Virus record (IMG/VR): IMGVR_UViG_3300013125_000059
Coordinates: 1-20,363 of that record
Direction: 5' to 3' (one strand)
DNA: 20,363 bases
Source: a virus
Each line of letters starts with the position of its first letter. Position 1 is the stretch's first letter. The notes beneath the pieces are model-generated. The model saw only the letters and a list, made by a program, of their open reading frames with translations. It did not search any database and was not told the DNA's origin. Below, piece after piece: positions 3,135 through 7,066 of this stretch. The position numbers were made by a program, and so were the translations under genes.

Positions 3135-3305
3135 ATGGACAAAGAACGACTTTATACAATACAAGAAGTTGCCGAAATCCTAAGATTCCATCCCCAGACC
3201 ATATACAAATTAGTACGATCTGGAGAATTGAAAGCCACTCGCTTCCGAAAGGAATGGAGGATAGTAGGCAAGGATTTGGTGGCTTATTTGGGAGATAAAG
3301 GATAA
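3135..3305 (+). CDS. Excisionase-family (HTH_17/MerR-like) DNA-binding protein
   Basis: 56 aa from ATG 3135 to TAA 3305. It matches the small excisionase/HTH_17 domain closely: [20 protein letters not shown] (first helices and HTH), [19 protein letters not shown] (the wing), then DLVAYL. The domain fills the whole protein. It is likely a transcription regulator or excisionase that binds the divergent promoter region just upstream. Its stop overlaps the sigma-factor start (TAATG), so the two are made together. The longer overlapping frame at 3116-3298 is a shadow with no domain resemblance. Confidence 0.85.
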
Positions 3306-4117
3306 TGACTTCTACTTCTCTGGGTATTTACTTAAACTCTATAGGAAACATAGACCTGCTCAGCCCGAAAGAAGAAGTAGAACTGGCAAAGAAAATAGAA
3401 CAAGGGGATACAAAAGCCCGAGATAAGTTAGCAGAGGCTAATCTTAGGTTAGTAGTATCCACAGCTAAGAATTACCTCGGAAGAGGTTTATCCTTTATGG
3501 AACTTATTCAAGAAGGAAACGTAGGACTTATTACCGCCGCCGAAAAATTTGATTGGAGACGGGGGTTTAAGTTCTCCACTTATGCGATGTGGTGGATTAA
3601 ACAAGCAATGACTAGAGCCATAGCAGATCAAGCTAGAACCATCCGATTACCAGTACATATAAACGAACGGGCTACGAAATTTAAGAGAGCACGAGATGAA
3701 CTTGCACAAGACTTGGACAGAGATCCAACTGATAAAGAGATATCCGACAGGTTGGGAGTTAAAGAGGATCGTGTGACTGATTTACAAAAGGTACTACAAA
3801 AGACACTTTCATTGGATATGATGATTAACGATGAGGAAGATACTACCTTTATAGACTTTGTGGACGATTCTTGTGAAGAGATAGTAAGTTCTGTTAATAG
3901 GGAATTCATCGTGAGATTTATTAACCAAGCTTTAGAAACACTACCCGAGAGAGAAAAAGAGATCATTAAAAGAAGATTCTCTATAGGAACAATAGATCAA
4001 AAGACCCTAGAAGACGTAGGGTCGGATTTCGGGATTACGAGAGAACGGGCTAGACAGCTAGAGAAACAAGCTCTAGATAAGTTGGCCAAATTTGATTTCC
4101 TTTCTTCCCTCCTTTAA
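3305..4117 (+). CDS. RpoD-like RNA polymerase sigma factor
   Basis: 270 aa. Region 1.2 (about 5-35), region 2 with [26 protein letters not shown] split across 47-72, and region 2.3-2.4 [20 protein letters not shown] (87-106). The Gln and Thr that read the -10 box in RpoD are kept (Q100, T103). Region 3 runs about 118-165, and region 4 has the -35-reading helix TRERARQLE (245-253). The acidic segment 174-192 is reminiscent of region 3.2. Region 1.1 is absent, and the protein is much shorter than a bacterial housekeeping sigma. Translation is coupled to the HTH gene. It probably redirects host RNA polymerase to phage promoters, perhaps the late set described below. Confidence 0.93.
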
Positions 4118-4484: not shown

Positions 4485-4532
4485 TATCATATCCAATAGA
4501 TTAAGAATTGCGTCTTAAAACGATAAGTAATT

Positions 4533-4560
4533 TTGGCTTTTTAAAGTTCCCCAGTATAAA
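4533..4560 (+). promoter_or_regulatory. Possible rightward promoter in the control region
   Basis: TTGGCT (4533-4538), 16-bp spacer, TATAAA (4555-4560). Transcription would start near 4567 and run through the hairpins at 4561-4639, against the minus-strand RNA. The boxes are moderate matches only. Confidence 0.3.
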
Positions 4561-4639
4561 AGGTCACTCTTGTAGAACACGTTACGCCTGTTCTATGGTT
4601 CGTGACTTACCGTCTTGTCCACGGTTTCTTAATAGAAAC
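4561..4639. other. Cluster of perfect stem-loops
   Basis: Three stems in series. The first is GTCAC/GTGAC (4563-4567, 4602-4606) enclosing TAGAACA/TGTTCTA (4573-4579, 4589-4595). The second is ACCGT/ACGGT (4609-4613, 4621-4625). The third is GTTTCT/AGAAAC (4624-4629, 4634-4639). All pairs are Watson-Crick, so the sequence does not say which strand is transcribed. The 108-codon frame at 4508-4834 over this region is not believable as a protein. Confidence 0.45.
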
Positions 4640-4668
4640 AAAAAAAGACACCTCTATTACGAGATGTC
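4640..4668 (-). terminator. Intrinsic terminator of the minus-strand RNA
   Basis: Minus strand: GACATCTC, loop GTAATA, GAGGTGTC, then seven T. The stem is 8 bp with one G-U pair, which would be an A-C mismatch on the other strand. This supports minus-strand use. Confidence 0.75.
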
Positions 4669-4838
4669 CTTGTTTGAAACTATTGAGTTGGTTAAACCTT
4701 GGCAGGTTATTTGCATTAAAAATACCCTTTACTGTGATGTCGGTGTGAAGAGTATTTGCATAGTCCAACACCACAATAAAAGGTACTTGAACCTCTTCAC
4801 TTTTAGCGTATGCGTCGCTGTATTAATTTGTTAATCTA
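4640..4838 (-). ncRNA. Candidate structured phage RNA with an H-type pseudoknot (about 200 nt)
   Basis: The unit runs from a promoter (4839-4874) to an intrinsic terminator (4640-4668) on the minus strand and has no SD-led frame. Near the 5' end is a hairpin AGCG/CGCT. Then GTGAAGAG (4800-4793) pairs perfectly with CTCTTCAC (4752-4745). GTGGTGTTGG (4774-4765) pairs over 10 bp with CCGACATCAC (4743-4734). The two stems interleave (a-b-a'-b') with one base between a' and b', which is an H-type pseudoknot. Two G-U pairs in stem b and one in the terminator would be A-C mismatches on the plus strand, so the structure is strand-specific. It does not fit tRNA or tmRNA layouts. Function is unknown; a regulatory, decoy or packaging RNA are options. 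Confidence 0.55.
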
Positions 4839-4874
4839 AATATACAACTAATAAACTTTATATGCAATATGCAA
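4839..4874 (-). promoter_or_regulatory. Promoter of the minus-strand RNA, with the TTTATTAGTTGTA element
   Basis: Minus strand: TTGCAT (4874-4869), 18-bp spacer, TAGTTG (4850-4845) inside TTTATTAGTTGTA, followed directly by TATATT (4844-4839). Either hexamer could serve as the -10, giving a start at about 4838 or 4832. The same 13-bp element precedes the portal gene and the gene at 9648. Confidence 0.55.
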
Positions 4875-4875
4875 A

Positions 4876-4904
4876 TTTATGACATCCGTTAGTTGTGCTA
4901 TATT
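4876..4904 (+). promoter_or_regulatory. Extended -10 promoter of the late operon, leaderless geometry
   Basis: TGC-TATATT (4896-4904) is an extended -10, preceded by GTTAGTTG. Only AATCTT separates it from ATG 4911, so the RNA should begin at the start codon. The -35 position (4876-4881, TTTATG) is a poor match. The same GTGCTATATT is found before the gene at 17263. Confidence 0.6.
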
Positions 4905-4910
4905 AATCTT

Positions 4911-5105
4911 ATGGATAACAAGAAAGTACTAGTTACCGCAGAGATGGTAGTAAAGGAATTAAAGTTTAGAACCCTGTTAAGCGGGGATAAACAAGCAACT
5001 CTAACTCTAGAGACTTCCTATGACGATCAAGAAGTAACCGAACAACTCAAAACCTTAGCAGATAAGAAGTTTGTAATGGTAGTAGTTATGGAGGGTAATC
5101 AATGA
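4911..5105 (+). CDS. Small protein preceding the terminase genes
   Basis: 64 aa. I chose ATG 4911 rather than an in-frame ATG 18 nt upstream because that codon lies inside the promoter. The chain has the look of a small alpha/beta domain (ELKFRTLLSGDKQATLTLET, then EVTEQLKTLADKKFVMVVVMEG). No family is recognised. Its TGA overlaps the next ATG by 4 bases (ATGA), so it is coupled to the small terminase. No SD is present, as expected for a leaderless message. Confidence 0.7.
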   Translation: MDNKKVLVTAEMVVKELKFRTLLSGDKQATLTLETSYDDQEVTEQLKTLADKKFVMVVVMEGNQ

Positions 5106-5485: not shown

Positions 5486-5559
5486 ATGCTGGTAAAGGGT
5501 AAACTACCGACCATTCCCTTTCTGGTCACCCTTCGTGGGCAGTACTCACCCGTCTCGTG
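5486..5559 (+). other. TerS-TerL spacer, GC-richer, with inverted repeats and a 24-codon frame
   Basis: The spacer is visibly richer in G and C than its flanks. It contains AAAGGG...CCCTTT, CCC-TTCGT-GGG, and GGG-CAGTACTCA-CCC around the palindrome AGTACT. A 24-aa frame (ATG 5486 to TGA 5558-5560) begins right after the TerS stop and overlaps the TerL ATG as TGATG, so it could act as a coupling frame. It could also be the packaging recognition site. Neither role is proven. Confidence 0.35.
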
Positions 5560-6438
5560 ATGGAGTTAAAGCGAGGCAACCAGCGTTTAGCTATGAATCA
5601 AGGATACCGTAAATGGATAGAAGATAACTTAAGTATCGTTAACAAGGAAGGTAACTTAGTACCCTTTCTATTAAACAATGTGCAGAATAAATTTTTGACT
5701 GAAGACTTGGGGACCGATGGCAAGAATAAGGCGATTGTACTTAAAGCTCGCCAACAGGGATTCTCTAGCCTAGTAAATGCTATATTCACCGCCGACTTTC
5801 TTATAAAGCCTAATACATACAACGTAGTTATCGCAGACGATACAGACAACGCCCAAGGACTACTTAAGAGAGTGAAAGATTACTTAACCTGTTGGGCCGA
5901 GAAGAGAAAACTTAAGTTGGAGGATATACTAAAATATAACTCCAAGTATGAACTCTACCTACCTTCAATGGAGATAGGTGGAACTAAAGTAGAATGTAAC
6001 TCTACTTACATCATAGGTACGGCTCAAAATATAAACGTCGGGCGTTCTAAGACGATAACCAATCTTCATTTATCGGAGGCGGCGTTCTACCCCCACTTCT
6101 CGGAGTTGTTGAGGGGAGTACTTCAAGCAGTCGTCCCTAGTGGTAGGGTAGTTATGGAAACCACAGCCAATGGGTTTAACGAGTTTAAGGAGTATTGGGA
6201 TTCCTCCGTAAGAAACGAGACCGGATTCAACCCCCTATTCTATAGAGCTAGTGACTTTTATTCCCCAGAGTTTCTAGAAGATAAGAAGAAAGAATTAAAG
6301 GATAGTTACGCTCAAGAGTACCCCGATACCCCAGAGGAAGCATTCTTAACTAGTGGGGAACAGTACTTCGATCGTGCAGCATTAAAAAGACTCTTAGAAT
6401 TGACCAGAGATCCTTCGGAGGTACTAAATTATGTTTAG
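5560..6438 (+). CDS. Large terminase, ATPase half (split gene)
   Basis: 292 aa if started at ATG 5560 (GTG 5557 and ATG 5593 are alternatives; none has a good SD). It carries the packaging-motor ATPase: adenine-binding and Walker A region KARQQGFS (62-69), Walker B NLHLSEA with Glu173, and the coupling motif ETTANGF (200-206). The protein ends just after the ATPase domain at FDRAALKRLLELTRDPSEV, where intact terminases continue into the nuclease. The nuclease is the next gene, in another frame and overlapping by 8 bases. Together they should form the DNA-packaging motor at the portal. Confidence 0.92.
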   Translation: MELKRGNQRLAMNQGYRKWIEDNLSIVNKEGNLVPFLLNNVQNKFLTEDLGTDGKNKAIVLKARQQGFSSLVNAIFTADFLIKPNTYNVVIADDTDNAQGLLKRVKDYLTCWAEKRKLKLEDILKYNSKYELYLPSMEIGGTKVECNSTYIIGTAQNINVGRSKTITNLHLSEAAFYPHFSELLRGVLQAVVPSGRVVMETTANGFNEFKEYWDSSVRNETGFNPLFYRASDFYSPEFLEDKKKELKDSYAQEYPDTPEEAFLTSGEQYFDRAALKRLLELTRDPSEVLNYV

Positions 6439-7066
6439 AATATACCGCAAATTAGAACCCAACGAGAAGATAGTTGTTGGAGTAGATACCGCTTCTGGAC
6501 TTAACGACTACGTAGCAGTGCACTTCTTGTCTAAGACCAATATAGATGTCCCTTGGGTGTACCACAGTAAGCAAACGATAACAGAAGCCACTAACAAGAT
6601 CGCAGATGCCTTAAACAAAATATACGATATTACAGGTAAGAAACCCATTGTGGCATATGAGAGAAATAACGGCGGAGCCTTTGAGATGGACAGACTGGCT
6701 AGTATGAACAGACTTAATAAGTACGAAGTGTTTAGGATGCCAGAGTTTGGGAAGCAAGAGGCTGGTACTACAGTTAGATTGGGCTGGGACACTAATAGCG
6801 CTACTAGACCAATCATGTTGCAGGAATTGAAGGATGCAATAGATAAGGGGGTATTAAGGATATACGATAAGGCTACGGTTAACGAAATGTTCTCATTTGT
6901 TGTAGTTCAATCTACTAACACATGGAAAGCCCAGGCAGAACGTAATGCACATGATGATCTTGTTATGAGTTTATCCATCGCTTGGCAGTTGTATCAAAGA
7001 GTCCAGCCTGATCTAAATGACATAAAGGTTATAAAGAATGACTTTAACAACTGGTCACTTGCTTGA
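6431..7066 (+). CDS. Large terminase, nuclease half (split gene)
   Basis: 211 aa, the RNase H-like terminase nuclease. Acid residues are in place: Asp19 in VVGVDTASG, Glu77 in IVAYERNN, and Asp175/Asp176 in AHDDLVMSLSIAW. It cuts concatemeric DNA at the start and end of packaging. An SD (GGAGG, 9 nt before ATG 6431) lies in the end of the ATPase gene, so this half can start translation by itself. The first residues (FRIYRKLEPNEKIVVGVD) match the linker and first strand that would follow the ATPase in a single-chain terminase. Nothing seems missing at the junction. Confidence 0.92.
   Translation: MFRIYRKLEPNEKIVVGVDTASGLNDYVAVHFLSKTNIDVPWVYHSKQTITEATNKIADALNKIYDITGKKPIVAYERNNGGAFEMDRLASMNRLNKYEVFRMPEFGKQEAGTTVRLGWDTNSATRPIMLQELKDAIDKGVLRIYDKATVNEMFSFVVVQSTNTWKAQAERNAHDDLVMSLSIAWQLYQRVQPDLNDIKVIKNDFNNWSLA

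Follow-up and report, generated by a model that had tools for sequence, protein, structure and literature searches.

Here we ask what occupies the gap before the late operon of an uncultivated virus of bacteria. We analysed an entire virus record of 20,363 bases (IMG/VR record IMGVR_UViG_3300013125_000059; hereafter the window). It encodes a sigma factor, a portal, an SU10-like capsid protein and a large terminase divided between two open reading frames (ORFs). About 800 bases, mostly non-coding, separate the sigma-factor gene (end 4117) from the late operon (start around 4911). An earlier note, made from the sequence alone, placed in this gap a candidate for a new structured RNA, read from the minus strand, that contains a pseudoknot and has a promoter and a terminator of its own. 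The element precedes the small terminase gene and is encoded on the other strand from the late genes, and the comparative evidence given below supports it as a predicted RNA.

The gene layout shows some further features. The two terminase ORFs (ATPase and nuclease) lie at 5557-6438 and 6431-7066. Among related loci (L numbers), the same split point is found in L003-L006, L184-L195 and L218, and in L005 the two halves are about 7.3 kb apart. The sigma factor (3305-4117) is virus-encoded and of the primary type. It is preceded by an HTH_17 protein, and its regions 2-4 also match the PADLOC MzaA model, probably via the sigma fold.

A predicted transcription unit opposite the late operon

We predicted a minus-strand RNA of 193 nt, from about 4832 to 4640 (Table 1), close to the unit of about 200 nt described before. 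Its promoter ranks 18th in the 20-kb window by weight matrix, with a fraction of contig stretches as good of 0.025, and is missing from a plain consensus scan. It diverges from the late promoter, as the earlier note had it, and lies 8 bp from the -35 of that promoter. The RNA also has its own terminator. The late operon from 4911 is probably leaderless, judging by the predicted promoter. Two operons of the window (ATG at 3135 and 4911) seem to be of this kind, the predicted -10 box ending 6-7 nt before the ATG.

Table 1. Predicted features of the element and its surroundings, in minus-strand order
Feature	Position	Strand	Basis or detail
Divergent late promoter, extended -10, TTTATG-17-TATATT	4876..4904	plus	promoter scan; ATG at 4911
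RNA promoter, TTGCAT-17-TATATT	4839..4867	minus	weight-matrix scan; transcription start ~4832
Small 5' hairpin, AGCG-ACGCAUA-CGCU	4805..4819	minus	minimum-energy fold; just 5' of S1
S1 5' arm, GUGAAGAG	4793..4800	minus	8 perfect pairs with 4752-4745; p ~0.005
S2 5' arm, AAGUACCUUUUAUUGUGGUGUUGG	4765..4788	minus	24 uninterrupted pairs; compensatory changes against relatives
Loop segment, ACUAUGCAAAUA	4753..4764	minus	sequence; from S2 5' arm to S1 3' arm
S1 3' arm, CUCUUCAC	4745..4752	minus	within S2 loop; pairs with 4800-4793
S2 3' arm, CCGACAUCACAGUAAAGGGUAUUU	4720..4743	minus	24 pairs; five U at 4722-4718, then A and AUG; model R2 match 4818-4707
19-codon ORF, MQITCQGLTNSIVSNKDIS	4657..4716	minus	sequence; start right after U-run, stop inside terminator
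Intrinsic terminator of the RNA, 11 pairs then T-run	4644..4671	minus	z to -5.1 in windows covering the terminator
Terminator-like hairpin, likely end of sigma-factor unit	4609..4625	plus	terminator scan; convergent with the RNA

A small protein gene could instead lie on the plus strand (4664-4834 or 4508-4834), with the hairpin incidental. The frame is open for 56-108 codons, and two of the three nearby changes in L002, a near-identical sister contig, are synonymous in it. However, its codon score is -0.37, against at least 0.15 in 99% of true gene stretches, and the plus-strand ORFs over the element score like wrong frames, as non-coding sequence does. These ORFs have no family match and no homologue outside L002. 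We rejected the candidate and consider this reading extremely improbable; the conserved protein gene that the earlier note had set against its RNA was not found in homologues. On the minus strand, the 19-codon ORF, which differs by two amino acids in L002, is unlikely to be a protein gene in its own right. Of the 14 substitutions that separate L002 from the window over 9 kb, three sit within six bases (4687, 4688 and 4692), in the 3' linker of the RNA.

A long hairpin whose loop pairs with upstream sequence

The predicted fold has two interleaved stems. Hairpin S2 encloses a loop of 21 nt, eight of which pair with the sequence just upstream to form S1, entirely by Watson-Crick pairs, as had been described. 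The second stem had been given as 10 bp; it is real, but it is the inner part of a helix of 24 pairs. S2 contains five G-U pairs that would be A-C on the plus strand, and three of them are in the inner part, where three had been counted. The preference for one strand was borne out: the minus strand has a minimum free energy of -62.2 (z -5.05, with none of 200 shuffles as good), and the plus strand has a z of -0.60. The longest stem in 150 simulated 20-kb windows has 19 pairs, against 24 for S2. Given the hairpin, S1 has p ~0.005 when the upstream letters are shuffled, and the best combined S1 and S2 score in 2.08 Mb of shuffled related DNA is 58.0, against 67.5 in the window.

The loop segment between the S2 5' arm and the S1 3' arm contains AUGCAAAUA, which is found again after S2. 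In L159, too, a hairpin precedes S1. Of note, ATGCAAAT occurs three times in the 20-kb window, always within 4709-4876 (the RNA gene and its promoter). These copies adjoin a TTGCATA direct repeat and are possible protein-binding sites.

The two stems are unequal in predicted energy (S2 alone -30.7, S1 -10.2 kcal/mol), and on one side they are linked by 4 nt. By a geometric argument made by hand, a single molecule should be unable to complete both S1 and the 24-bp S2. The computed energies and linker lengths, read as for the alternative structures of an attenuator, imply the same exclusion. Because the second stem is 24 bp long, a pair of competing or partial states describes the fold better than a single static H-type knot.

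Relatives are found by structure

We assembled about 200 related loci from searches with the large terminase and the portal. Sequence comparison returned little. A nucleotide search of 50,697 phage records gave no match, and both the loop and stem patterns in IMG/VR and sequence searches with the RNA recovered only L002. Model R1, whose sole source was the window, recovered no relatives and did not pick out L159. A structural search led to L159 and L187/L186.

One mark of the proposed family is loop-upstream pairing with a long S2, which is present in the window (p 0.005) and in relatives. To keep selection out of the assessment, all long terminator-like hairpins with a large loop in the related loci were listed with S1 ignored, and loop-upstream pairing was tested afterwards. 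Six of the nine hairpins in this set have significant pairing (p ≤ 0.027 each). They lie on the minus strand of L195, L186/L187, L184/L034 and L159, that is, at four independent loci (p 0.007, 0.007-0.013, 0.007-0.010 and 0.027). The Fisher combination is 2.6e-6 for upstream pairing, a value that counts near-copies twice, against 0.79 for the downstream control. A further member, L218, came from newly fetched loci (S1 p 0.015).

The same anatomy recurs in L187/L186, L218, L184, L195 and L159, and on the other strand in L189/L193: promoter, S1 5' arm, S2 5' arm, loop with S1 3' arm, S2 3' arm and usually a U-tract. Each of the six minus-strand members has a sigma70-like promoter that ends at most 45 nt upstream of S1 (combined p 5e-6). 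In L187, L184, L195 and L218 the element is opposite the late operon and upstream of the large terminase gene; the distance to that gene is about 740 nt in L218 and roughly 120-310 nt in the other three. The site varies, since L159 and L189/L193 carry it in early or replication regions, the latter pair in the leader of replication genes. S2 is followed by a U-tract and AUG in L187, L184, L195 and L218, and by UUUUU-A-AUG in the window. The ORFs after the element have 7 (L187), 68, 19, 75 and 19 codons and are unrelated to each other, the 19-codon ORF of L195 included.

These contexts bear on the main rival reading, in which the element is a small noncoding RNA that stands alone and acts in trans or as an antisense of the late transcript. 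Its pseudoknot would then lock the 5' end into the RNA's own hairpin for stability, and S2 with its U-tract would simply end the RNA. The promoters in six members favour such an RNA, as does the position in four relatives, opposite the late operon and upstream of the large terminase gene. The element is conserved and the flanking ORFs are not, which fits better here than under gated termination; the lack of conservation downstream speaks against regulation of a particular gene. However, S2 and its U-tract stand directly before a start codon in L187, L184, L195 and L218 (after one A in the window), the L189/L193 copy is in a replication-gene leader, and a search for targets by complementarity in the window gave nothing convincing. 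We regard the stand-alone RNA as a serious possibility, although we lean against it. A cis-acting attenuator is a live alternative to it because the hairpin directly precedes the start codon in several relatives.

Several candidates were set aside. L213 and L214, the best two short DNA matches from 49 whole records, gave no comparable stem on folding, and L213 reads as coding; the remaining short matches from these records were also discarded. The long G-U stems of L198, L003, L009 and L076 have no significant S1 pairing. The L154 match is a simple repeat and the L025 match an end palindrome (1-133, a perfect 47-bp palindrome at the contig end, probably an assembly artefact). The hairpin of L188 (minus 364-266) has an S1 p of 0.124, overlaps the start of the terminase gene and was excluded from the members. 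Plus-strand model matches in L187 and L218 mirror the same hairpin and add no members.

Other structures were seen upstream of terminase genes. L003 (1641-1729 plus) and L012 (2207 minus) have very stable ones (z -7.9 and -9.7), that of L003 without S1 pairing. By eye, tRNA-like elements are present in L008 (1380-1561, a tandem duplicate) and L005 (about 2700-2830), of which ARAGORN calls none; L006 has a tRNA-Pro at a similar position.

Compensatory change in both stems

We compared the S2 stems pair by pair. Between the alignable L187 and L218, 14 pairs are identical, 6 compensatory, 3 one-sided and 2 broken; between the window and L187 the corresponding counts are 12, 7, 4 and 1. With the order of pairs shuffled, the window gave p 0.005 in comparison with L187 and likewise with L218, in the same register. 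Across five members, 13 of 25 S2 pairs show double changes, a count not reached in any of 500 shuffles and far above that of slid controls; such pairing counts are inflated because members were chosen partly as hairpins, and lowered because L195 is out of register by three in this alignment. The covariation on which the earlier note had staked its candidate is therefore present. The letters of S1 differ in every minus-strand member and its pairing is kept in all. The closely related L189 and L193 show a C-G to U-A change at one S1 pair and double changes at two S2 pairs (54 of 500 shuffles, a comparison in which two sequences cannot give significance).

Covariance models connect the window to these relatives. 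Model R2, built from L187 and L218 only and run on both strands of the window without filters, placed its top match on the predicted element (25.5 bits, E 7e-4). The second-best match in the window scored 17.7 bits, and the best in 0.88 Mb of unrelated phage control DNA 19.4 bits. A five-member model scored L189 at 25.5 and L159 at 23.2, both outside the training set, with controls at no more than 20.7. We take homology of the window element and its relatives as probable and not as proven, because any strong hairpin gains score from such models; the stems are so diverged that it rests on moderate statistics (paired-stem p 0.005). The comparison shows a predicted architecture, the long hairpin S2 and the S1 pairing of its loop with the 5' region, in which both parts are kept by compensatory change. 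The relatives thus keep the same predicted fold with almost entirely different letters.

It could be asked whether S2 is only a long intrinsic terminator or insulator, with S1 fortuitous. Long terminators are common, and S2 with its U-tract is terminator-like in most members. However, S1 has p 0.005 in the window, its pairing is in excess in the selection-free set with a clean downstream control, and L189/L193 carry a compensatory S1 change. In the window, moreover, a separate and stronger terminator follows about 50 nt further on. We consider this reading unlikely.

Rfam 15 gave no match at the gathering threshold in the window (best sub-threshold hit 18.4 bits, against 44) and none for L187, L159, L184, L193, L195, L188, L218 or L189, in line with the statement that the element fits no known family. 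A literature search, whose coverage of subscription journals was mostly lacking, found no description of it. The element likely represents an undescribed family of regulatory RNAs, as far as sequence comparison can tell.

A proposed mechanism

Our preferred reading, to which we give an even chance, is a short (~193 nt), self-limiting minus-strand phage RNA of an undescribed structured family, in which a pseudoknot gates a terminator-like hairpin. During transcription S1 would form first, once its 3' arm has been synthesised, and its loop would then contain the 5' arm of S2. The emerging S2 3' arm would then pair only near the top, because the S1-S2 link of the minus-strand members (0, 0, 2, 3, 4 and 10 nt) is too short for complete S2. 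S1 and complete S2 should not coexist, since a link of 0-10 nt faces a helix of 22-26 bp that is about 60-70 Å long; this constraint is inapplicable to L189/L193, whose link is 38-39 nt. Among members, S2 has -25 to -38 and S1 about -6 to -10 kcal/mol.

S1 would thereby delay or limit the completion of S2 and, wherever S2 serves as the terminator, as it appears to in most relatives, would gate termination. While S1 holds, the polymerase would pass into a downstream ORF in some relatives, or to the second terminator in the window; when S1 opens, S2 would close and transcription would stop. The resulting RNA would be compact, with its 5' region held by the hairpin that it forms itself, and would be transcribed opposite the late (terminase) genes or just upstream of them. 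The U-tract after S2 is shorter in the window than in most other members (five U, as opposed to seven or eight), and with only these five before AAUG the window S2 would be a weak terminator. Because of the five U and the second terminator that follows, the result in the window may be RNAs of two lengths and not the control of a gene. More tentatively still, these elements could be a new class of transcription attenuators, carried by viruses whose bacterial hosts are uncultivated, that gate termination by geometry through a pseudoknot within the terminator loop.

Comparison with known systems

We compared the element to three kinds of known RNA. RNAs of type III toxin-antitoxin systems are short and structured, a terminator separates them from the toxin gene, and ToxI forms a pseudoknot (PMC12373285). 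Such an RNA, or an AbiF-like one, would neutralise a toxin or a host defence. As with ToxI and the AbiF-associated RNA (RF03085; PMC12373285), a phage or prophage would encode a short RNA that folds into hairpins or a pseudoknot and has its own promoter and a terminator before the next gene. Unlike them, the element lacks repeats: the known ones are in tandem, of about 34-50 nt, whereas the window has only a 7-nt double repeat (4860-4874). It also has no Rfam match and no adjoining toxin gene, with no ToxN/AbiQ/AbiF-type Pfam or PADLOC match among the neighbours. An antitoxin-like function is thus very unlikely.

Phages also make small RNAs, including antisense RNAs opposite late genes, and carry moron-type inserts of promoter, gene and terminator. 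Like these, the element is a unit of its own, oriented against the late operon. It differs from them in a specific conserved pseudoknot architecture, which is not described for them in the literature searched. The element would give a little-known group of viruses a further RNA family, found by structure where sequence search fails, and it warns that sequence-led searches for RNA families can miss fast-evolving phage RNAs.

In riboswitches and leader attenuators such as preQ1-I, a pseudoknot competes with an intrinsic terminator, so that pseudoknots competing with terminators are already known in principle. Attenuators of the preQ1-I type have a promoter-proximal pseudoknot followed by a terminator hairpin, and the window element is predicted to share this layout, in which the two would compete. 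Unlike these attenuators, the members have no conserved ligand-pocket sequence and their downstream genes differ. The conserved unpaired core of an aptamer is absent, as the loops differ and only the stem pairing and the U-tract with AUG recur. The S1 3' arm, moreover, lies inside the terminator loop, and the competition would be geometric instead of resting on shared bases. If this gating is true, a simple rule, a linker too short for two helices, tunes termination without a ligand. With neither shared bases nor a ligand pocket to preserve, almost the entire sequence could change as long as the architecture stays.
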